Assembly: GCF_902459745.1 (NCBI RefSeq)
Contig: NZ_CABPSJ010000003.1
Location: forward strand, 496,001-560,000
From: Pandoraea communis
Lineage (GTDB): Bacteria > Pseudomonadota > Gammaproteobacteria > Burkholderiales > Burkholderiaceae
Length of the DNA stretch: 64,000 nt
Reading direction: 5' to 3'
Shown: piece by piece, positions 19,273 through 32,011 of the stretch
Position numbering within the stretch: position 1 is the first letter of the stretch
How the letters are laid out: the number at the start of each line of letters is the position of its first letter
The notes under the pieces: generated by a model
Seen by the model: the letters and a program-made list of their open reading frames with translations, nothing else
Database searches by the model: none
What the model was told of the DNA's origin: nothing
Made by a program: the position numbers and the translations under genes

Positions 19273-19917
19273 TCAAGGGCGAGGTGAGCCGCTTGAGCGC
19301 TTGGAGAGTGCAAGGCGGAGCAAGTCGGCGACGGTATTGACGTTGAGCTTCTCCATGATGTTGGCACGGTGTGCCTCGACCGTTTTGATGCTGATGCCAA
19401 GATCATCGGCAATCTGCTTGTTCAGGCGGCCGGCAATAATGCGCTCCAGCACCTGATGCTCGCGGCTCGTGAGCTTCGAAAGCAGGTCTTCGGCAGCTTG
19501 CTGCTCACGTTGGCTGCTCGCGTCTTGCCGGGCCTTCGAGAGCATCCGTTCGACTTGAGCGCGGAGTTCCGCTTCGTCAAAAGGCTTTTCGATGAAGTCC
19601 ATCGCACCTTTTTTCATCGTGTCGACCGCCATCGGCACGTCGCCGTGGCCCGTCACGAAGATGATCGGAATGTTGAACCGGTTTTCGACTAGTTTTTCCT
19701 GTAGCTCCAGCCCGCTCATGCCGGGCATGCGAACATCGAGAATCAGGCAGCCCACCTGATGTCCGTTGTAGTGCGAAAGAAACTCCTCTGCGCTTGCAAA
19801 GCCTCGCACATGGTAGCCATTGGCCTCGAGAAGCCAGCGAAGCGAGTCACGGACCGCTTCGTCGTCATCGACAACGAAGACGGTTTCTTGGTCGATATTG
19901 GTGTTGGGTGTCGTCAT
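19273..19917 (-). CDS. FixJ-family response regulator
   Basis: Two-domain regulator, 214 residues: a receiver domain with acidic pocket D17-D19, phospho-acceptor D61 (LILDVRMPG) and the conserved EKPFDEAEL lysine, then a LuxR/FixJ-type HTH (LTSREHQVLERIIAGRLNKQIADDL). ATG 19917 overlaps the kinase stop codon as ATGA and has a GGGGGAGG ribosome site, so the pair is translationally coupled. The family activates transcription after phosphorylation. Its target is unknown; the closest divergent operon is aceE-aceF-lpdA. Confidence 0.93.
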   Translation of the reverse strand: MTTPNTNIDQETVFVVDDDEAVRDSLRWLLEANGYHVRGFASAEEFLSHYNGHQVGCLILDVRMPGMSGLELQEKLVENRFNIPIIFVTGHGDVPMAVDTMKKGAMDFIEKPFDEAELRAQVERMLSKARQDASSQREQQAAEDLLSKLTSREHQVLERIIAGRLNKQIADDLGISIKTVEAHRANIMEKLNVNTVADLLRLALSKRSSGSPRP

Positions 19918-22397
19918 AGTCCTCCCCCGGATCCGGATGTCGTATCGCCTTCTAACGGTAACAGAATACAAAATGTACAACCATTCCGCACGCCATCGAT
20001 TTCATTGTTTTCTACCCAAAGACGGCCGTGGTGCGATTCGATGATCGAACGGCAGATGTTCAGGCCCATGCCCATGCCGTCCGACTTAGTACTAAAAAAG
20101 GGTTCAAACAATCGTTCGATTGTCGCTTCGTCTACGCCGGGCCCGTGATCCGAGACCTGGAATTCGACCGATTTGTCGCGACGCTCCACGTGCAGACGCA
20201 CCGTGGAGTCACGTCGCTGGCCTGGCGGCGGCGTGTAGCCGTGCATCGCCTCGGCGGCATTCTTGAGCAGGTTCACGATCACCTGTTCGATAAGAACCGG
20301 ATCGACGTTGATCTGTGGCAAACCTGCGGGCAACTCGGTGACGATGCGAATGCGGCGTTTGCGCGCCTCGATCTCGGCGAGGCCCACGGCATCCGCCACG
20401 ATCTCATAAATCGATGACGGTTGGCGCTTCGGCTCGCTGCGTTTTACGAATGCCCGGATCCGCTTGATGATCATGCCTGCGCGAACCGCCTGTTGGGATG
20501 TTTTCTCCAGGGCAGGCAATAACGTTTCCGGCGAGGTGCGGCCGGCACGCACGAGGGCCGCAGTGCCCATGCAGTAGTTATTGATGGCGGCGAGAGGCTG
20601 GTTCAGTTCGTGAGCGAGCGACGAGGCCATCTCGCCCATCGTCGTCAGACGTCCCGTGAACTGCAGGCGCTCTTCTTCCTGACGGGCCAATTCTTCCGCA
20701 TGACGCCGCGCCGTAATGTCGGTTGCCACCTGCAACTGTGCCAAGTGGCCGTCCACCCACTGAATATATTGGCGTCGGACTTCGAACCATTTCTGGTGTG
20801 CGGGCAGATAGATTTCCTGCGTCTCGGCCGCCGTGTCGGTAAGCGAGGCAGCCGGCAATCCGGCAAACGCGTCGACCATGTCGATGTGGTCGAGCGAGGC
20901 CGGCGAGAGTTCGCCACCGCCCGACAACTCCAGATGGCCTTCAGGGCGCGTGCCGAACAATTGGCGGTAGTAGCGGTTCGCAAACAGCAACTCGGCCTTG
21001 TCGACGGCGAGCACGGACACCGACGCGTCAAGGCTTTCGAGCACGGTCGTAAAGCGCTCGTGGGCTGCGGCGAGTTCCTCACGTGCCCGCTTCGGTTCGC
21101 TGATGTCGGTCAGCGAGGACATCCAGCCTGTCTGGCGGCCATGCGCATCCACGAGCGGTGAGACGAACATGCGTGCGTAGAAGATCGTGCCGTCCTTGCG
21201 CTGCACACGAATTTCGAACCCGTGCGAGGGGGCCTTGCCGCGCAGCGTCATGTCAATGCGACGCTGCATCTCGTGGATGTCGTCCTTGGGCCAGTAAGGG
21301 TAGGGCGGTGCCCGGTTCATGAGGTCTTGCTCATCCCACCCCGTCATCCGGCAGAACGCCGGGTTCACATAGGTGATATGGCCCTGAAGGTCGAGCACCC
21401 GCATGCCGATCACGATGGAGTTTTCCATCGCTCGCCGGAACGATGTCTCGTTGAACAGCGCTTGTTGGGCCTCGAATCGTTGGCGCGTATGCCGCCACAG
21501 GCTCCAGAGACTCCAGAGGACGAAGCAGGACAATCCGGCAATCAACCAGACCAGTGTGTTGTTGACGAAATTGCCGACCGCCGGATACGAATAGATCCGT
21601 ACGGCGAGGCTGTGGCCGGGCGGGTCGAGCAGTAACTCGTACGAGACGTCGCGCGGCAGAGGCGGTCGTGTCGATGTCGTCGCCAACTCGTTGTTGTGGG
21701 TGTCGATGAAGGACACTTTGAATTTGTCGCCAAGCTCTTGCGGCAATTCGTGAATCAGCAGGCCCTCGACGGAATACACGGCGCTGATCGTGCCGAGAAA
21801 TTCACGTTCGCGCAGCACGGGGACCTGAACGACGATGTAGCTCGCGCCGGACGCGTCGTAGATCAACGTGGAATAGGCCGATCGGCGCGAATCGCGGGCG
21901 GCACGAAATGCGACCAGGAGTTCGTCCTCCATCGGATGCTGAGCCGATCCCTGCAAACGCGAAGCGAAAGGCGAGTCGGCCGGCACTGCCCACTTCGGGC
22001 GTTGCGACGCATCGAGCCAGTTCATGAAGACGATGTCCGCATGATTCTGCATCAGCTCGCTCGCCGTATTCTGGAAGTGCGCAACGTCCTGCGGCTTTGC
22101 CGCCGTATCGCGGGCAAGTGAACTGATCTGGTCCTGAATGGCCAGCATATTGAGGCGGATCTGCTGCTGCGCCCAAGCCACGTTCCGATACAGCGTGTCC
22201 TGCTGCTGCTCCGTCTCTCGCCGATTCAGGCTCCACAGGATCAAACTCATCACCACGAGGAAGATCACAATGGAGACCAGCGGGACCAGCAGGTAGTAAT
22301 GCGACTCCGCGAACCCCTGCAACCAGCGATTGGAGCGGGCAGGCGCGGTGGCGGACCGGGACGGCGGAGCGGAGTTGGCAAGGCGTGGCGAAAGCAT
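19914..22397 (-). CDS. PAS-domain sensor histidine kinase (FixL/DctB-like)
   Basis: Membrane sensor kinase, 827 residues from ATG 22397. Order: a cytoplasmic basic N-tail, TM1 (residues ~34-55, VPLVSIVIFLVVMSLILW), a periplasmic sensing domain of about 250 residues, TM2 (LVWLIAGLSCFVLWSLW), two PAS domains with a PAC segment (RVQRKDGTIFYARMFVSPL), a HisKA domain with phospho-acceptor H596 in LAHELNQPLAAINN, and an HATPase domain (DHGPGVDEATIERLFEPFF, GMGMGLNICRSIIESHHG). The frame is open another 52 codons upstream, but this start gives a normal topology. The signal sensed is unknown. It is divergent from aceE across a 342-nt regulatory region. Confidence 0.92.
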   Translation of the reverse strand: MLSPRLANSAPPSRSATAPARSNRWLQGFAESHYYLLVPLVSIVIFLVVMSLILWSLNRRETEQQQDTLYRNVAWAQQQIRLNMLAIQDQISSLARDTAAKPQDVAHFQNTASELMQNHADIVFMNWLDASQRPKWAVPADSPFASRLQGSAQHPMEDELLVAFRAARDSRRSAYSTLIYDASGASYIVVQVPVLREREFLGTISAVYSVEGLLIHELPQELGDKFKVSFIDTHNNELATTSTRPPLPRDVSYELLLDPPGHSLAVRIYSYPAVGNFVNNTLVWLIAGLSCFVLWSLWSLWRHTRQRFEAQQALFNETSFRRAMENSIVIGMRVLDLQGHITYVNPAFCRMTGWDEQDLMNRAPPYPYWPKDDIHEMQRRIDMTLRGKAPSHGFEIRVQRKDGTIFYARMFVSPLVDAHGRQTGWMSSLTDISEPKRAREELAAAHERFTTVLESLDASVSVLAVDKAELLFANRYYRQLFGTRPEGHLELSGGGELSPASLDHIDMVDAFAGLPAASLTDTAAETQEIYLPAHQKWFEVRRQYIQWVDGHLAQLQVATDITARRHAEELARQEEERLQFTGRLTTMGEMASSLAHELNQPLAAINNYCMGTAALVRAGRTSPETLLPALEKTSQQAVRAGMIIKRIRAFVKRSEPKRQPSSIYEIVADAVGLAEIEARKRRIRIVTELPAGLPQINVDPVLIEQVIVNLLKNAAEAMHGYTPPPGQRRDSTVRLHVERRDKSVEFQVSDHGPGVDEATIERLFEPFFSTKSDGMGMGLNICRSIIESHHGRLWVENNEIDGVRNGCTFCILLPLEGDTTSGSGGGL

Positions 22398-22593
22398 GGC
22401 GAGATTGTAGCGCAGGCGCGCCGGTTTCCCTCTGCCGCGACCTGTTAAGGATGGCTTTTCGGAAGGGTCCGATGTTTTCGGTAAGACACCAGCGCAAAGT
22501 GCAACGGAGACCGATCGGTACGCTTTCAAATCGTGGTGTGATAGTGCCCGCAACCCTTTGATTTTATGTGCACTGCAACAGAATTCCGTATTA

Positions 22594-22654
22594 TGAAATT
22601 TGCTATCGTAATCTGAAATTTCGCTTGCGGAGGCAGGAATAACCTTCGTACAAT
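22594..22654 (+). promoter_or_regulatory. Candidate aceE promoter with upstream direct repeats
   Basis: The 342-nt divergent region between the kinase gene and aceE holds TTGCGG (22625-22630), an 18-nt spacer and TACAAT (22649-22654). Immediately upstream are two copies of TGAAATTT at 22594-22601 and 22614-22621, exactly 20 bp apart, which is a spacing suited to an activator bound on one DNA face. AAGGAGA lies before the aceE ATG. The boxes are predicted by eye only. Confidence 0.45.
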
Positions 22655-22739
22655 GCCCCGGTAAAAAAGCCGGTGGGCCCGTCCATGAAGCGGGTATCGA
22701 CCGTTACGCCAACCCGCTAACGACAGACAAGGAGACACC

Positions 22740-25427
<2,688 letters not shown>

Positions 25428-25524
25428 AGGCCGCTTCGCGCGGTGTGCGCGACCGTCAGCCGCCCCTTGGCGGCAGGCGGGCGCACGCCGCACGTCAAGC
25501 GCAGCCTCGAGGAGACTGTGGAAA

Positions 25525-27168
25525 ATGAGTCAAGTGATCGAAGTGAAAGTCCCGGATATCGGTGACTTCAAGGACTTGCCCGTCATCGACGTGCTGGTCA
25601 AGGCGGGCGACAAGATCGATGCCGAGCAGGCCCTGATCACGCTGGAGTCGGACAAGGCCACCATGGACGTGCCCAGCCCGGCCGCCGGTACCATCAAAGC
25701 GTTGAGCCTGAAGGTCGGCGATGAAGTATCCGAGGGTTCGCTGATTCTGACGCTCGAAACAGCGAACGGCTCGGGCGCCCAGGCAAACGGTGCCGCTGCC
25801 CCCGCGCCAGCCCCGCAGGCCGCTGCCCCGGTATCTGCACCAGCGCCGGCCGCCAGCGGCGGTACGAGCACGATCGACGTGAAGGTGCCGGACATCGGTG
25901 GTTACGACGATGTGCCCGTGATCGACGTGTTGGTCAAGGTGGGTGACACCGTGACGACCGAGCAATCGCTCGTCACGCTGGAATCCGACAAGGCATCGAT
26001 GGACGTGCCGAGCCCGGCGGCAGGTGTCGTCAAGGAACTGAAGATCAAGGTTGGCGACAAGGTGTCGGAAGGCACGTTGATCGTTGTGCTCGAAGGTGCT
26101 GCCACGGTGGCTCCGGCTAAGGCCGCAGCACCGGCGCCGGCACTCACTCCGGCTGCCCAGAGCGCGGCACCGGTAGCGCCGGCTCCCGCCGCTGCTCCGG
26201 CGCCTGCCGCCGGGCCGGCGGTTGCTGCTGCGGCCGGCAATCAGCCGATCAGTCACGCCAGCCCGTCGGTGCGTAAGTTTGCCCGTGAACTGGGTGTGGA
26301 CATTACGCAAGTGAAGGGCTCGGGTCCGAAGGGCCGCGTGGTCGTTGACGATGTGCGCAATTTCGTCAAGAGCGCACTCGCGGGCAACCGCCCGGCGGCT
26401 GCGGGTGCCGCACCGGCGGGGGGGGGCGAGCTGAATCTCCTGCCGTGGCCGAAGGTCGACTTCTCGAAGTTCGGCCCGGTCGAGCCGAAGGCACTTTCGC
26501 GTATCAAGAAGATTTCGGGCGCGAACCTGCATCGCAACTGGGTCATGATCCCGCACGTCACGAACAACGACGAAGCGGATATCGGCGAACTCGAAGCCTT
26601 CCGTGTGCAGTTGAACAAGGAAAACGAAAAGGCCGGTATCAAGGTGACGATGCTTGCTTTCGTTATCAAGGCCTGCGTCCTGGCCCTGAAGAAGTTCCCC
26701 ACGTTCAACGCGAGCCTCGACGGCGACAACCTCGTCTTCAAGCAATACTTCCATATCGGCTTCGCGGCAGACACGCCCAACGGTCTCGTTGTGCCCGTTG
26801 TTCGCGATGCCGACAAGAAGGGGGTGTTCGAGATCGCACGTGAGACCTCGGAACTGGCCAAGCTCGCTCGCGAAGGCAAGCTCAAGCCGGATCAGATGCA
26901 GGGCGGTTGCTTCTCGATCTCGTCGCTCGGCGGTATCGGGGGCACGACCTTCACGCCGATCATCAACGCGCCGGAAGTGGCGATTCTGGGCTTGTCGCGT
27001 TCGTATCAGAAGCCGGTGTGGGACGAGCGCAAGCAGCAGTTCCTGCCGCAACTGACGCTGCCGCTGTCGTTGTCCTACGATCACCGTGTGATCGACGGCG
27101 CCGAAGCCGCACGCTTCAACGCCTACCTGGGCCAACTGTTGCAGGACTTCCGTCGCGCAATGCTGTAA
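25525..27168 (+). CDS. aceF: Dihydrolipoamide acetyltransferase (pyruvate dehydrogenase E2)
   Basis: Core of the pyruvate dehydrogenase complex, 547 residues. Two lipoyl domains carry lipoylated K44 (ESDKATMD) and K156 (ESDKASMD), joined by Ala/Pro linkers. A peripheral-subunit-binding domain (SVRKFARELGVDITQVKGSG) and the catalytic acyltransferase domain with H520 in SYDHRVIDG follow. A run of nine G (26418-26426) lies in the flexible linker before the catalytic domain and is in frame here. Betaproteobacterial E2 usually has two or three lipoyl domains, so this is normal. Confidence 0.97.
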   Translation: MSQVIEVKVPDIGDFKDLPVIDVLVKAGDKIDAEQALITLESDKATMDVPSPAAGTIKALSLKVGDEVSEGSLILTLETANGSGAQANGAAAPAPAPQAAAPVSAPAPAASGGTSTIDVKVPDIGGYDDVPVIDVLVKVGDTVTTEQSLVTLESDKASMDVPSPAAGVVKELKIKVGDKVSEGTLIVVLEGAATVAPAKAAAPAPALTPAAQSAAPVAPAPAAAPAPAAGPAVAAAAGNQPISHASPSVRKFARELGVDITQVKGSGPKGRVVVDDVRNFVKSALAGNRPAAAGAAPAGGGELNLLPWPKVDFSKFGPVEPKALSRIKKISGANLHRNWVMIPHVTNNDEADIGELEAFRVQLNKENEKAGIKVTMLAFVIKACVLALKKFPTFNASLDGDNLVFKQYFHIGFAADTPNGLVVPVVRDADKKGVFEIARETSELAKLAREGKLKPDQMQGGCFSISSLGGIGGTTFTPIINAPEVAILGLSRSYQKPVWDERKQQFLPQLTLPLSLSYDHRVIDGAEAARFNAYLGQLLQDFRRAML

Positions 27169-27177
27169 CAGGCGGAC

Positions 27178-27210
27178 GCCGCCGGTAGCGCATAGGCGCA
27201 AACCGGCGGC
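27178..27210 (+). repeat. Inverted repeat between aceF and the BPH gene
   Basis: Nine-bp arms GCCGCCGGT and ACCGGCGGC enclose a 15-nt loop. There is no T tract, so it looks more like an mRNA stability or attenuation hairpin than a terminator. Confidence 0.5.
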
Positions 27211-27251
27211 GCTCGCGCGACAGCTTCAGGATCTGGACGGGGAGGGGCATC

Positions 27252-27833
27252 ATGACCACCGTGGTAGTCGTCAAGAAGGCAGGCGAGATCGCCATTGCCG
27301 CCGATTCGCTCGTGACGTTCGGCGACACAAGACTCTCGCAATCGTACGAGGAGAATCGCAAGGTTTTTCTCGTGGGCGATTCCTATGTCGGCCTGGCCGG
27401 CACGACCGCGCACTTTCCGGTCATGCGCGCCATTCTTTCCGGTATGGCAGACGAGTGCCGTCTGCACTCTCGCGACGAAGTGTTCCGCACGTTCTGTCGC
27501 GTCCATCAGAAGCTCAAGGAAGAGTATTTCCTCAACACGAAGGAAGAGGAGGACGATCCGTACGAGTCGTCGCAGATCACCAGCGTGATCGCGAATCCGA
27601 CGGGTATTTACGGGGTCTATTCCTACCGGGAAGTGTTTGTTTTCGATCGGTTCTGGGGGATCGGTTCGGGGCGCAACTTCGCGCTCGGTGCCATGTATGC
27701 CCTCTACGACCAGGATCTGAGCGCTAGCGCCATCGCCGAAGCGGGCGTGAAAGCGGGGGCGGAGTTCGACAAGAGTTCCGCCGGCCCGTTTCAGGTGCAT
27801 GCGTTTCCGATCGATACCACCATCAAGTCATAA
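27252..27833 (+). CDS. Proteasome-like Ntn-hydrolase, probable beta-proteobacterial proteasome homologue (BPH)
   Basis: 193-residue protein of the HslV/proteasome beta fold. After Met removal it begins with TTVVVVKKAGEIAIAADS, so the N-terminal threonine nucleophile and the Asp17 equivalent are present, with a basic pair (R35-K36 after processing) near the family lysine. GSGRNFALGAMYAL matches the proteasome GSG turn and helix. It is longer than HslV (about 175) and shorter than Anbu (about 240 or more), there is no adjacent hslU, and the sequence fits BPH, a ring-forming homologue described in Thiobacillus and Cupriavidus. It has a strong GGGGAGGGG ribosome site and lies between aceF and lpdA. 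Substrates and any partner ATPase are unknown. Confidence 0.8.
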   Translation: MTTVVVVKKAGEIAIAADSLVTFGDTRLSQSYEENRKVFLVGDSYVGLAGTTAHFPVMRAILSGMADECRLHSRDEVFRTFCRVHQKLKEEYFLNTKEEEDDPYESSQITSVIANPTGIYGVYSYREVFVFDRFWGIGSGRNFALGAMYALYDQDLSASAIAEAGVKAGAEFDKSSAGPFQVHAFPIDTTIKS

Positions 27834-27853
27834 ATGCGACAGGGAGACCCCGC

Positions 27854-29608
27854 ATGAGTCTCATCGAAGTCAAGGTACCGGACATCGGCGCAGAGGGCGT
27901 GGATGTCATCGAAGTGATGATCAAGCCGGGCGACAAGATCGCCAAGGAAGCGTCGCTCATTACGTTGGAATCCGACAAGGCCTCCATGGAAGTGCCGTCC
28001 GAAGTGTCGGGCACGGTCAAGGAGGTGAAGATCAAGGTGGGCGACAAAGCCAGCCAGGGCACACTGATCGCGCTGATCGAAGCCGATGATGCGGGGGCCG
28101 CCAAGGTCGCCGCTCCGGCGGCTGCGCCGGCACCGGCAGCGCCCGCTGCGCCTGCGGCTCCCGCGCCGGCCGCCGCCAAGCATAGCGGCGGCGCAGATAC
28201 CGAATGCGACGTGCTCGTGCTGGGTGCCGGTCCGGGAGGTTACTCGGCCGCGTTCCGCAGCGCTGACCTGGGCCGCAAGACGGTGCTCGTCGAACGCTAC
28301 GCAACGCTCGGTGGTGTGTGCCTGAACGTAGGTTGTATTCCGTCGAAGGCGCTGCTCCACACGGCGGCCGTCCTCGAAGAGGCGCAATCGCTGGGTCATC
28401 ACGGCATCTCGTTCGGGAAGCCCGAAGTCGATCTCGACAAGCTGCGCGCCTATAAGGAAAGCGTTGTCGGGAAGCTCACGGGCGGTCTGGCCGGCATGGC
28501 CAAGATGCGCAAGGTGGAAGTCGTTCGCGGCGTAGGCAAGTTCCTCGACCCGAACCATATGGAAGTCGTGGCCGAAGATGGCAGCAAGCGTACGGTGAAG
28601 TTCGCGCAGGCGATTATCGCTGCGGGCTCGCAGGCGGTGAAGTTGCCTTTCCTGCCGGAAGATCCGCGTATCGTCGATTCGACCGGCGCGCTCGAGTTGC
28701 GCCAATTGCCGAAGAAGATGCTGGTGATCGGCGGGGGCATTATCGGTCTGGAAATGGCGACGGTCTATAGCGCCCTGGGTACCGAGATTGACGTTGTGGA
28801 AATGCTCGATGGCCTGATGCAAGGTGCTGACCGCGATCTGGTCAAGGTTTGGGAGAAGATGAACGCGAAGCGATTCGGTCGCGTCATGCTCAAGACCAAG
28901 ACGGTGGGTGCCGAGGCCAAGCCCGATGGCATCTATGTGAAGTTCGAGGGCGAAGCTGCACCGGCTGAGCCGCAGCGCTACGACCTCGTGCTGGTCGCGG
29001 TGGGCCGCAGCCCGAACGGCAAGAAGATCGGTGCCGAGAATGCGGGCGTGTCGGTGGGCGATCGCGGCTTCATCTCCGTCGACAAGCAGATGCGCACGAA
29101 TGTGCCGAATATCTTCGCGATCGGCGACATCGTGGGGCAGCCGATGCTTGCGCATAAAGCCGTACACGAAGCGCATGTGGCGGCCGAAGCGGCGGCAGGA
29201 GAGAAGGCATACTTCGATGCCATCCAGATTCCGTCTGTGGCCTATACCGATCCGGAAGTGGCTTGGGCCGGCAAGACCGAGGACCAACTGAAAGCGGAAG
29301 GCGTGAAGTACGGCAAGGCCGTGTTCCCGTGGGCAGCATCGGGCCGCGCTATCGCCAATGGCCGCGACGAGGGTTTCACGAAGCTGTTGTTCGACGAAGA
29401 GACGCATCGCATCGTTGGCGGCGCGATCGTTGGCACGCATGCGGGCGATCTGATTGGTGAGCTGTGCCTGGCCGTCGAGATGGGGGCAGACGCCGTCGAC
29501 ATCGGCAAGACGATTCACCCGCACCCGACGCTGGCCGAATCGATCGGCATGGCAGCGGAGATCTACGAAGGCGTTTGCACCGACGTACCGCCTGCGCGCA
29601 AAAAGTAA
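27854..29608 (+). CDS. lpdA: Dihydrolipoamide dehydrogenase with N-terminal lipoyl domain (pyruvate dehydrogenase E3)
   Basis: FAD-dependent E3 that reoxidises dihydrolipoamide using NAD. The 584-residue protein starts with its own lipoyl domain (lipoylated K42 in ESDKASME) joined by an Ala/Pro hinge to the flavoprotein. That part shows the FAD motif VLGAGPGGYSAA, the redox disulfide C156/C161 (GGVCLNVGCIPSK), the NAD motif VIGGGIIGLEMA and the C-terminal catalytic HPHPTLAES. The lipoyl extension is common in betaproteobacterial and neisserial E3. It is the last gene of the operon, followed by a terminator. Confidence 0.97.
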   Translation: MSLIEVKVPDIGAEGVDVIEVMIKPGDKIAKEASLITLESDKASMEVPSEVSGTVKEVKIKVGDKASQGTLIALIEADDAGAAKVAAPAAAPAPAAPAAPAAPAPAAAKHSGGADTECDVLVLGAGPGGYSAAFRSADLGRKTVLVERYATLGGVCLNVGCIPSKALLHTAAVLEEAQSLGHHGISFGKPEVDLDKLRAYKESVVGKLTGGLAGMAKMRKVEVVRGVGKFLDPNHMEVVAEDGSKRTVKFAQAIIAAGSQAVKLPFLPEDPRIVDSTGALELRQLPKKMLVIGGGIIGLEMATVYSALGTEIDVVEMLDGLMQGADRDLVKVWEKMNAKRFGRVMLKTKTVGAEAKPDGIYVKFEGEAAPAEPQRYDLVLVAVGRSPNGKKIGAENAGVSVGDRGFISVDKQMRTNVPNIFAIGDIVGQPMLAHKAVHEAHVAAEAAAGEKAYFDAIQIPSVAYTDPEVAWAGKTEDQLKAEGVKYGKAVFPWAASGRAIANGRDEGFTKLLFDEETHRIVGGAIVGTHAGDLIGELCLAVEMGADAVDIGKTIHPHPTLAESIGMAAEIYEGVCTDVPPARKK

Positions 29609-29731
29609 CTCGCGTCGGCACTGGCGCTTGGCATCGAGTGTCGAGCATTTGCGGTGCAAGCGTCGAAGGCCGATGCGCTGGCGGACGCCCTCAATCGCGC
29701 CGTTCGCCATTGTGGCGTCTGTCAGAAGAAA

Positions 29732-29764
29732 GCCGTCATCCCATTCAGGGGTGGCGGTTTTTTT
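29732..29764 (+). terminator. Terminator after lpdA
   Basis: A 10-bp stem GCCGTCATCC(C) with GGGGTGGCGG (two G-T pairs, loop ATTCA) is followed by a run of T. The space from 29609 to 30031 otherwise holds only terminators and an 11-G run at 29866-29876. Confidence 0.8.
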
Positions 29765-29893
29765 ATGTGCGGATGTCGGCTGCGAAATGTCTGGCGCGAA
29801 CGCCTGCCGCATGCGTCGCGACTGGCGTTCGATCGACCCCGTCGCGGCGGGAAGGGCACAGGAGCGGGGGGGGGGGCGTCAAACCGCTGCCCC

Positions 29894-29920
29894 AAAAAGA
29901 AACCCGGCGCGGGCCGGGTT
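29894..29920 (-). terminator. Terminator after the phasin gene
   Basis: On the minus strand AACCCGGC and GCCGGGTT form an 8-bp stem followed by TCTTTTT. A second small palindrome (GGTACTT-A-AAGTACC, 29926-29940) lies just before it. Confidence 0.8.
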
Positions 29921-30031
29921 CGAAAGGTACTTAAAGTACCGAGGAGACAACTGGGTGTCGCTGTATCACTTTGAGACACAGCGACAGATTTTCAAGCGTC
30001 CCTCGCGACAGCGCTATAAAAGCGCTATCGA

Positions 30032-30592
30032 TTACTTCTTGGTGCTGGCAGCGCGCGAAGCCTGAGCGGCAGCCTTCGATGCAACGTTGGTCGCAGCAGC
30101 GAAGTTCGTCTCAGCGATCTCCACGGCTTGCTTGGTTGCCTTCTGCACGCTGTCGAAAGCGCTATTGGCAGCCGACAGTGCCGACTTGGCGAGTGCAACC
30201 GCCGACTCGGAACCGGCCGGGGCGTTCTTGGCCAGGTTGTCGAACAGCGCTTGGACATTGTGCGAGCCTTCAGCCAGTTGGGCTTCAGCCACCTTGGTCA
30301 CTTCAGCTTGCGTCGACGAAGCGATTTCATACAGGTGGCGGCCGTACGCGAGTGCCTTTTCGGCAGCCGGCTGGACGAGGTTGGCTTGCAGAGCGAGCAA
30401 CTCTTGCGCGTCCTTCACAGCGAAAGCCTTCTGCGCGGTCGAAGCGGATTCGGCCAGCGATGCCTTGACGGCTTGCAGGTTCAGCTCGACCAGCTTTTCA
30501 ACGCCTTCGAAGGCTTTGTTGGTCAGGCCAAACAGGGTTTCGAGGTTGGCTTTATGGGCGGCAGCGAGTTGCTCGGGGGTCAGAAACGACAT
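30032..30592 (-). CDS. phaP: Phasin family protein
   Basis: Polyhydroxyalkanoate granule surface protein, 186 residues, almost wholly alpha-helical and alanine-rich ([20 protein letters not shown] at the start, Lys/Ala tail). Phasins coat PHA granules and control their size and number. The N-terminal helix and the repeated AxxxA pattern are typical of the PhaP1/TIGR01841 group. AGGAGA lies before ATG 30592. It is alone on the minus strand with its own promoter and terminator; no PHA synthase is in the window. Confidence 0.92.
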
Positions 30593-30711
30593 GGCGTTCT
30601 CCTATGGTGTCATACACAACATATCGACCCACTCCGTGTTCGCTGGTTGGTTCTCACCTTATGTCGGTGAAAACACGGTTGGGGCCTCTCAAATCGATGC
30701 ATTCTCTTTTG

Positions 30712-30775
30712 TGCATCGCACAATTGCAAGTGTAGAGATATTTTTGGCAGTGTCAAGTCTTTTTTGTGCGCCGCA
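30712..30775 (-). promoter_or_regulatory. Phasin promoter flanked by two TGC-N3-GCA sites (possible PhaR operators)
   Basis: Read on the minus strand there is a perfect -35 TTGACA (plus 30751-30756), a 16-nt spacer and -10 TACACT (plus 30729-30734). TGCGCCGCA (30767-30775) sits just upstream of the -35 and TGCATCGCA (30712-30720) at the expected transcription start. This layout matches the PhaR control known for phaP1 in Ralstonia/Cupriavidus. The rest of the 477-nt gap up to 31069 shows no gene. Confidence 0.55.
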
Positions 30776-31069
30776 GCAATTCAACAAAAGCTTACAAAAT
30801 CAAAAGCTTGAGATCCCATCAGGGGCGAGTGACACTGCGTCGCGGCGACGTTTTCACGCTCCCCGGAGAGCCTTGATTGGTGCGGTTTTGCACTGTTTTG
30901 GCGCCCGGCGCACCATGCACGGCGATGGTACTATCAATAGGTTCCGGCACCGGCGGGACGGTAACGCATGCAAGATTGCTCTCGCTTTCGAAGGGGGCGC
31001 GTGCTGTCCGCCAGTGCCGATATTCTTCACCGCCTTTTTGCGTGCCGCATCTGCCGGCCACTCGCGTCG

Positions 31070-32011
31070 ATGCAAGCGTTTTACAGCGACCATTTCGTCT
31101 TGCCATTGCCGCCGGGGCATCGGTTTCCCATGGAGAAGTATTCCCGTCTGCGCGAACGCGTTACCGGCGAACTCCCGGAAGTCGCGCTGGCCGAGGCCTT
31201 GCCCGCAGACGACGCGATGCTGGGTCGCGCCCATTCGCGGGAGTACGTGGCGCGCGTGAGCGCCGGTGAGCTGAATCCGAAAGAGCAGCGCGATATCGGA
31301 TTTCCGTGGTCGCCGCAGATGGTCGAGCGCTCGCGCCGGTCTGCCGGGGCGACAGTGGCCGCCTGCCGTGCCGCGCTCTCCGATGGCGTGGCCGTGAATC
31401 TCGCTGGCGGCACCCATCACGCGTATGCCGATCGTGGGGAAGGGTTCTGTGTATTCAACGACGCCGCCGTCGCCGCCCGCACGATGCAGGCCGAACTCGG
31501 CCCCCACACCCGTGTCGCGATCATCGATCTCGATGTGCATCAAGGCAACGGCACCGCCGCCATTTTCGAGCGCGACCCCAGCGTCTTCACGTTGTCGCTG
31601 CACGGCGAACACAATTATCCGTTTCATAAGGCGAACGGCGACCTCGATGTGGCGCTGCCCGACGGCTGCTGTGACGACGAATATCTCGTCGCGCTCGGTC
31701 ATGCGCTGACCGATCTTTTCGCGCAGTTCACGCCGTCGCTCGTGATTTATCTCGCGGGGGCCGATCCATTGGAAAACGACCGGCTCGGCCGGCTGGCCCT
31801 GACGCAAGATGGATTGCTCGCGCGCGACCGTCGTGTATTGACGGCGTGCGCCGAGCGGGGACTGCCGGTCGCTATCGCGATGGCGGGTGGCTATGGCCGA
31901 GACATCGGGCAGACGGTCGCCGCGCATTTCGCCACGATCCGGCTCGCCAGCCAATTCCAGCGCGCGAGCCGCCGTGTCTTCCGCGCGCCGGCGGGCGGCG
32001 TTCTCGTATGA
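31070..32011 (+). CDS. Histone deacetylase family protein (acetylpolyamine/class II deacetylase-like)
   Basis: Zinc-dependent amidohydrolase of the arginase-deacetylase fold, 313 residues. Zinc and catalytic motifs are visible: GGTHHAYADRGEGFCVFND (tandem His), IDLDVHQGNGTA (Asp and His ligands) and the third ligand in YLAGADPLENDRLG. The frame is open 34 codons upstream, but ATG 31070 gives the family start (MQAFYSDHFVLPLPPGHRFP). It overlaps the next gene by ATGA, so the two are coupled. The substrate, acetylpolyamine or another acetyl-amide, is not decided by sequence. Confidence 0.9.
   Translation: MQAFYSDHFVLPLPPGHRFPMEKYSRLRERVTGELPEVALAEALPADDAMLGRAHSREYVARVSAGELNPKEQRDIGFPWSPQMVERSRRSAGATVAACRAALSDGVAVNLAGGTHHAYADRGEGFCVFNDAAVAARTMQAELGPHTRVAIIDLDVHQGNGTAAIFERDPSVFTLSLHGEHNYPFHKANGDLDVALPDGCCDDEYLVALGHALTDLFAQFTPSLVIYLAGADPLENDRLGRLALTQDGLLARDRRVLTACAERGLPVAIAMAGGYGRDIGQTVAAHFATIRLASQFQRASRRVFRAPAGGVLV

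Follow-up and report, generated by a model that had tools for sequence, protein, structure and literature searches.

Why does a gene for a proteasome-like hydrolase lie inside the pyruvate dehydrogenase (PDH) operon of Pandoraea communis, between the genes for E2 and E3? We analyzed a 64,000-nucleotide stretch of contig NZ_CABPSJ010000003.1, hereafter the window, for which this arrangement had been proposed, and the open reading frame together with the Pfam assignments of its neighbours confirms a 193-aa gene, bph, between aceF and lpdA (Table 1). Spacers of 83 nt and 20 nt separate the gene from the aceF stop and the lpdA ATG, respectively. Its own ATG is preceded by a purine-rich GGGGAGGGG stretch that reads as a likely ribosome-binding site, and a scan of positions 26900-28000 returned neither promoter-like sites nor, on the plus strand, terminator-like sites. 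The product is identical (100%, 193 residues) to proteins of P. bronchicola and P. horticolens. Around the operon, Pfam identifies a PAS-domain histidine kinase divergent from aceE and 186 nt upstream of it, a candidate operon regulator, and, just 3′ of lpdA, a phasin and a histone-deacetylase-family protein.

Table 1. Features of the bph locus (positions are those of the window)
Feature	Position	Strand	Basis or detail
PAS-domain histidine kinase	19914-22553	-	Pfam
aceE (PDH E1, 895 aa)	22740..25427	+	Pfam
aceF (PDH E2, 547 aa)	25525..27168	+	Pfam: two lipoyl stretches, E3-binding, catalytic domain
aceF-bph intercistronic hairpin	27177..27211	+	fold, covariation
likely ribosome-binding stretch of bph, purine-rich	27240..27248	+	read off the sequence
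bph	27252..27833	+	193 aa; ATG at 27252, stop codon 27831-27833
lpdA (PDH E3, 584 aa)	27854..29608	+	Pfam: N-terminal lipoyl domain
phasin	30032-30592	-	Pfam
histone-deacetylase-family protein	30968-32011	+	Pfam

The beta-proteobacteria proteasome homologue (BPH) was reportedly first described by Valas and Bourne in 2008. In a PDB search, the bph product matched 5ovu, the BPH of Cupriavidus metallidurans, best (E 4.1e-90, near full length), followed by the BPH of Thiobacillus denitrificans (structures 5ovs and 5ovt; E 1.9e-36 to 5ovs, near full length) and then, far more weakly, by HslV (E 1.3e-4); 20S beta-5 chains appeared at E 0.006 and above, and no Anbu-named chain was present among the 50 matches listed, with E up to 1. 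The product scores 34.8 bits against PF00227 (cut-off 22.4), a domain that Anbu and 20S beta subunits share with BPH, 38 bits against the 157.75 required by the NCBIfam HslV model, and 20.7 bits against the cut-off of 191.9 of the bacterial 20S model. HslV (ClpQ) resembles BPH in its proteasome-beta fold family and N-terminal Thr, but it has its own gene beside hslU on contig C1, away from bph on contig C3, whereas bph has no hslU neighbour: none of the six HslU-family matches in the genome lies inside the window, and the sole HslU match over cut-off adjoins hslV. The original prediction therefore holds on both points, a better fit to BPH than to HslV or Anbu and, as far as HslU is concerned, no ATPase partner nearby; these comparisons make bph the BPH orthologue of Pandoraea. 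Against the C. metallidurans protein, encoded in the same PDH operon context (PMC5777263), we see only species-level variation in sequence, whereas the T. denitrificans gene lies beside argG and not in a PDH operon; all three BPHs have Thr1 and the catalytic set, an acidic pore loop and no partner ATPase.

The Pandoraea protein opens M-T-T, with a Thr directly after the start Met and no propeptide, and all of mature Thr1, Asp17, Lys36, Gly49, Ser138, Asp172 and Ser175 are present. The N-terminal Thr nucleophile and Asp17, which had been singled out from the start, recur widely: across 130 aligned BPHs, Asp17, Lys36 and Gly49 are invariant (130/130 each), Ser138 is found in 121 and Asp172 in 127, and 125 have Thr as residue 1, the other 5 Ser. 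Thr1, Asp17, Lys36, Gly49, Ser138 and Asp172 are intact in 24/24 PDH-linked rows, with position 175 being Ser in 21 and Thr in 3. The five Ser1-type rows all come from the order of the window (L191, L197, L202, L207, L211), and in two genomes, G157 and G118, such a BPH accompanies an argG-linked one (L197/L217, L211/L216). Outside the order, six rows have Thr at residue 1 (L312, L313, L316, L322, L323, L324), some of them very divergent, and the published rule that all BPHs outside Betaproteobacteria have Ser1 is, on these alignments, not strict. The acidic pore loop, at about residues 92-109 (KEEEDDPYESSQ), falls in a stretch of 21 residues in all 24 PDH, 52 hsp33/hsp15 and 41 argG/yajQ rows, with a median net acidic charge of 5, 6 and 5, respectively, and of 4-5 in every PDH-linked loop. 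Within Pandoraea, bph is under strong purifying selection (median dN/dS 0.029, n=19), compared with 0.038 for aceE (n=17), 0.051 for lpdA (n=19) and 0.072 for aceF (n=18), and this low value indicates that BPH is in use.

What it is used for is less obvious from the biochemistry in print. In C. metallidurans BPH, Met removal was demonstrated by mass and Thr1 is exposed; epoxomicin and MG132 both react with the nucleophile, and epoxomicin is bound to Thr1; the protein forms a heptameric double ring in solution, with a tetradecamer reported for two relatives; and the tested peptides and casein were not cleaved (PMC5777263). To have called this family little-studied was fair, though its crystal structures (5ovu, 5ovs, 5ovt) are published, with an active site of normal proteasome layout (PMC5777263). 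Because the published peptides and casein remained uncleaved, proteolysis by BPH is putative. That failure on standard substrates by a nucleophile that does bind epoxomicin and MG132, along with the existence in the same family of connectase, a specific ligase (PMC8665760), would fit a BPH that is no longer a protease and acts as a ligase-like, amidase-like or structural ring on a few partners; with the whole catalytic set under strong constraint and the active site arranged as in ordinary proteasomes, we consider such a loss of protease function unlikely.

The genomic surroundings of bph vary across the order. BPH is present in 116 of 300 genomes drawn from it, and the 117 sampled loci, which exclude the window's own, divide into PDH (11), hsp33/hsp15 (52), argG/yajQ (41), GATase-like (3) and other contexts (10, some of them at contig edges); a tblastn recount of the same loci gave aceF in 11, lpdA in 11, hsp33 in 44, hsp15 in 15, argG in 41 and yajQ in 40. 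At the family level, BPH matches turned up in 37 of 150 sampled genomes, the one in G434 being weak, at 32% identity. The suggested survey of the aceF-BPH-lpdA order in Burkholderiales shows an arrangement conserved in related genera: among the nearest 80 of 147 relatives from named genomes, a set biased to near kin, aceF and lpdA both lie within 400 nt of BPH in 75, and in another three BPH is followed after 98-124 nt by a lipoyl-domain match, which we took for a longer lpdA, while L082 stops at a contig edge and aceF is unresolved in L099. The order is retained down to 53% protein identity (L139).

When 133 BPHs are placed in a tree, one branch separates all 27 PDH-linked rows from the rest (one change, SH-aLRT 95), and the clade extends over six or more of the family codes sampled (f1, f3, f8, f10, f21, f49). 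An HslV-rooted tree of 110 rows likewise places its 18 PDH rows together (support 94), inside a clade (99) that is otherwise mostly hsp-linked; both trees were built quickly, without bootstrap. With all PDH-linked BPHs in one clade, the simplest account of the linkage would be a single ancient relocation followed by inheritance.

The PDH operon also occurs without bph. We chose 26 genomes, G434 included, among those taken to lack BPH; a PDH-type aceF locus was obtained from 25 of them, and none of the 30 loci examined had a BPH match. We considered whether another gene replaces BPH in these operons and rejected this, as lpdA lies close behind aceF, within 310 nt, in 21/25; in three loci (L263, L266, L267) no lpdA match exceeds 80 bits, and L268 stops inside aceF. 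In the genus of the window, 14 genomes have BPH, the window's included, and one listed genome, G194, does not. This reduced genome (1.2 Mb) keeps aceE, aceF and lpdA (L253), with an aceF-lpdA gap of about 204 nt, and contains no PF00227 protein, both HslV and BPH having been lost. Weak PF00227 proteins (22-25 bits; L278, L279, L280) are found in BPH-less relatives, one of these proteins being 32% identical to BPH; these are possibly other proteasome-like families.

These distributions bear on a reading of BPH as a protease dedicated to PDH quality control, which would act on oxidised or mis-lipoylated E1, E2 or E3 and be co-transcribed for that reason. In favour of it, one clade with six or more family codes has kept the E2-E3 position, carbonylation readily affects PDH (PMC5777263), and putative S1 positions diverge from those of the hsp-linked type. 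We nevertheless judge this role improbable: the linkage has a single origin, 106 of the 117 BPHs of the order lie elsewhere, BPH-less PDH operons are common and G194 keeps aceE-aceF-lpdA with no PF00227 protein, and in published work a BPH pull-down brought down neither a PDH subunit nor HslU and carbonylation patterns were unchanged (PMC5777263). The original prediction, that a functional link to PDH had not been established, is still correct, but the link had already been probed in print, with a negative pull-down; the location in the PDH operon, the missing unfoldase and the PDH link left as a question are all in PMC5777263. As regards published knock-out or expression data for BPH, PMC9166356 and PMC8591527 name no proteasome in their accessible parts.

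An early idea, that PDH- and hsp-linked BPHs share a substrate pocket, came from strands 18-28 and 46-56, where identity is 0.58 for PDH versus hsp and 0.23 for PDH versus arg (permutation 0.0002), these strands having been picked after the group-separating positions were known. Positions that we take to form S1, carried over to BPH from the proteasome literature by simple offsets, show the opposite trend (0.34 for PDH versus hsp, 0.44 for PDH versus arg, permutation 0.977). As the two sets conflict, we draw no conclusion on substrates and gave up the shared pocket.

Expression tuned within the operon had been suggested from the gene's own strong ribosome site and from a hairpin ahead of it, proposed at 27178-27210. 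The hairpin itself is borne out, with arms at 27177-27185 and 27203-27211 and an inner stem at 27188-27191 and 27196-27199, to which the minimum free energy fold adds outer pairs at 27172-27175 and 27213-27216 (z -2.57; an equally good fold in 1/200 shuffles). In an alignment of 15 of the 17 Pandoraea junctions (the window plus L033-L048, omitting L045 and L046, whose junctions are longer), pairing holds in 98.4% of cells, and 6 of 13 hairpin pairs have changes on both sides, a covariation reached in 0/500 shuffles. The hairpin is a single copy in the genome, with nothing beyond chance matches, and Rfam gave no match in 22000-31000. What proved weaker than stated is the case for its tuning expression. 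Ten of 79 aceF-BPH gaps are too short to fold, and z falls below -2 in 10/17 gaps of Pandoraea and 42/52 of the others, with unrelated sequences; for the aceE-aceF gaps (25428-25524 in the window) the count is 50/53 with a mean z of -4.25, a rough comparison given that gap lengths differ. The aceE-aceF gap folds more strongly, and therefore the aceF-bph hairpin is not special to BPH and we rejected it as a BPH-specific control element: hairpins tend to occur at the junctions of this operon in general and do not mark BPH.

Beyond the order, BPH has another home. A class sample of 369 genomes contains 45 BPH matches besides that of the window, all outside the order, and ribD precedes and ribE follows BPH in 28 of these 45 loci (at least one of the two in 30), with nrdR upstream in 28 and ribBA in 27, Pfam having been used to check one representative of each neighbour. 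The usual order is nrdR-ribD-BPH-ribE-ribBA (L281-L311 and L325), and none of the 45 loci has aceF, lpdA, hsp33 or argG near BPH. In one rib operon (L325, genome G624), BPH is in two pieces in different frames and is apparently broken. Residue 1 is Ser in 29/29 of the best outside-order loci, and in the HslV-rooted tree the PDH/hsp clade falls among rib-linked rows, with moderate support. Published contexts are the PDH operon in C. metallidurans, argG in T. denitrificans and Hsp33 in Laribacter (PMC5777263). Neither “riboflavin” nor “ribD” appears in PMC5777263, “riboflavin” is likewise absent from the accessible part of PMC8665760, which adds no BPH context data there, and a literature search found nothing relevant. 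As far as these two papers were accessible, ribD-BPH-ribE is a fourth BPH context, absent from both.

Because clades of BPH sit with lpdA (an FAD enzyme), with Hsp33 (a redox chaperone) and with riboflavin synthesis, one could also read BPH as a redox- or flavin-linked quality-control hydrolase whose contexts reflect one shared substrate class and not neutral parking; the argG context fits this poorly, and we give it little credence. Very unlikely, finally, is a second peptidase of HslVU partnered by the HslU of this genome or by another AAA+ protein: the genome does encode HslU and descent of BPH from HslV has been stated (PMC5777263), but the HslV model score is far below its requirement, hslU lies beside hslV and not bph, and the HslU-contact residues are not conserved, with no HslU pulled down (PMC5777263).

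Taken together, BPH is probably an autonomous Ntn hydrolase that draws its expression from housekeeping operons, and not a component of PDH. By analogy with the Cupriavidus protein, loss of the Met would expose Thr1 as the N-terminus, and 14 subunits would assemble into a double ring that encloses the active sites. BPH has been described without an ATPase partner or unfoldase (PMC5777263); no AAA+ partner would be needed and cleavage would be ATP-independent, probably of a narrow set of peptides or of unfolded or damaged proteins admitted by the acidic pore loops. A single relocation between aceF and lpdA, subsequently kept, would have provided steady co-transcription with central metabolism, and each operon would supply expression and not a partner, PDH subunits being neither dedicated substrates nor dedicated partners. 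Two points count against this expression-based reading: the retention of aceF-BPH-lpdA down to 53% identity could reflect selection for a PDH link, and the differences at putative S1 positions between PDH- and hsp-linked types would possibly fit a PDH-specific substrate.

Like a few other proteasome relatives of bacteria, BPH has structures in hand but no known substrate, so that any guide to its role helps. A single PDH-linkage event together with the rib branch means that the PDH operon alone is no guide to BPH function, and the PDH, Hsp33, argG and rib types form a comparative set for the substrate search.
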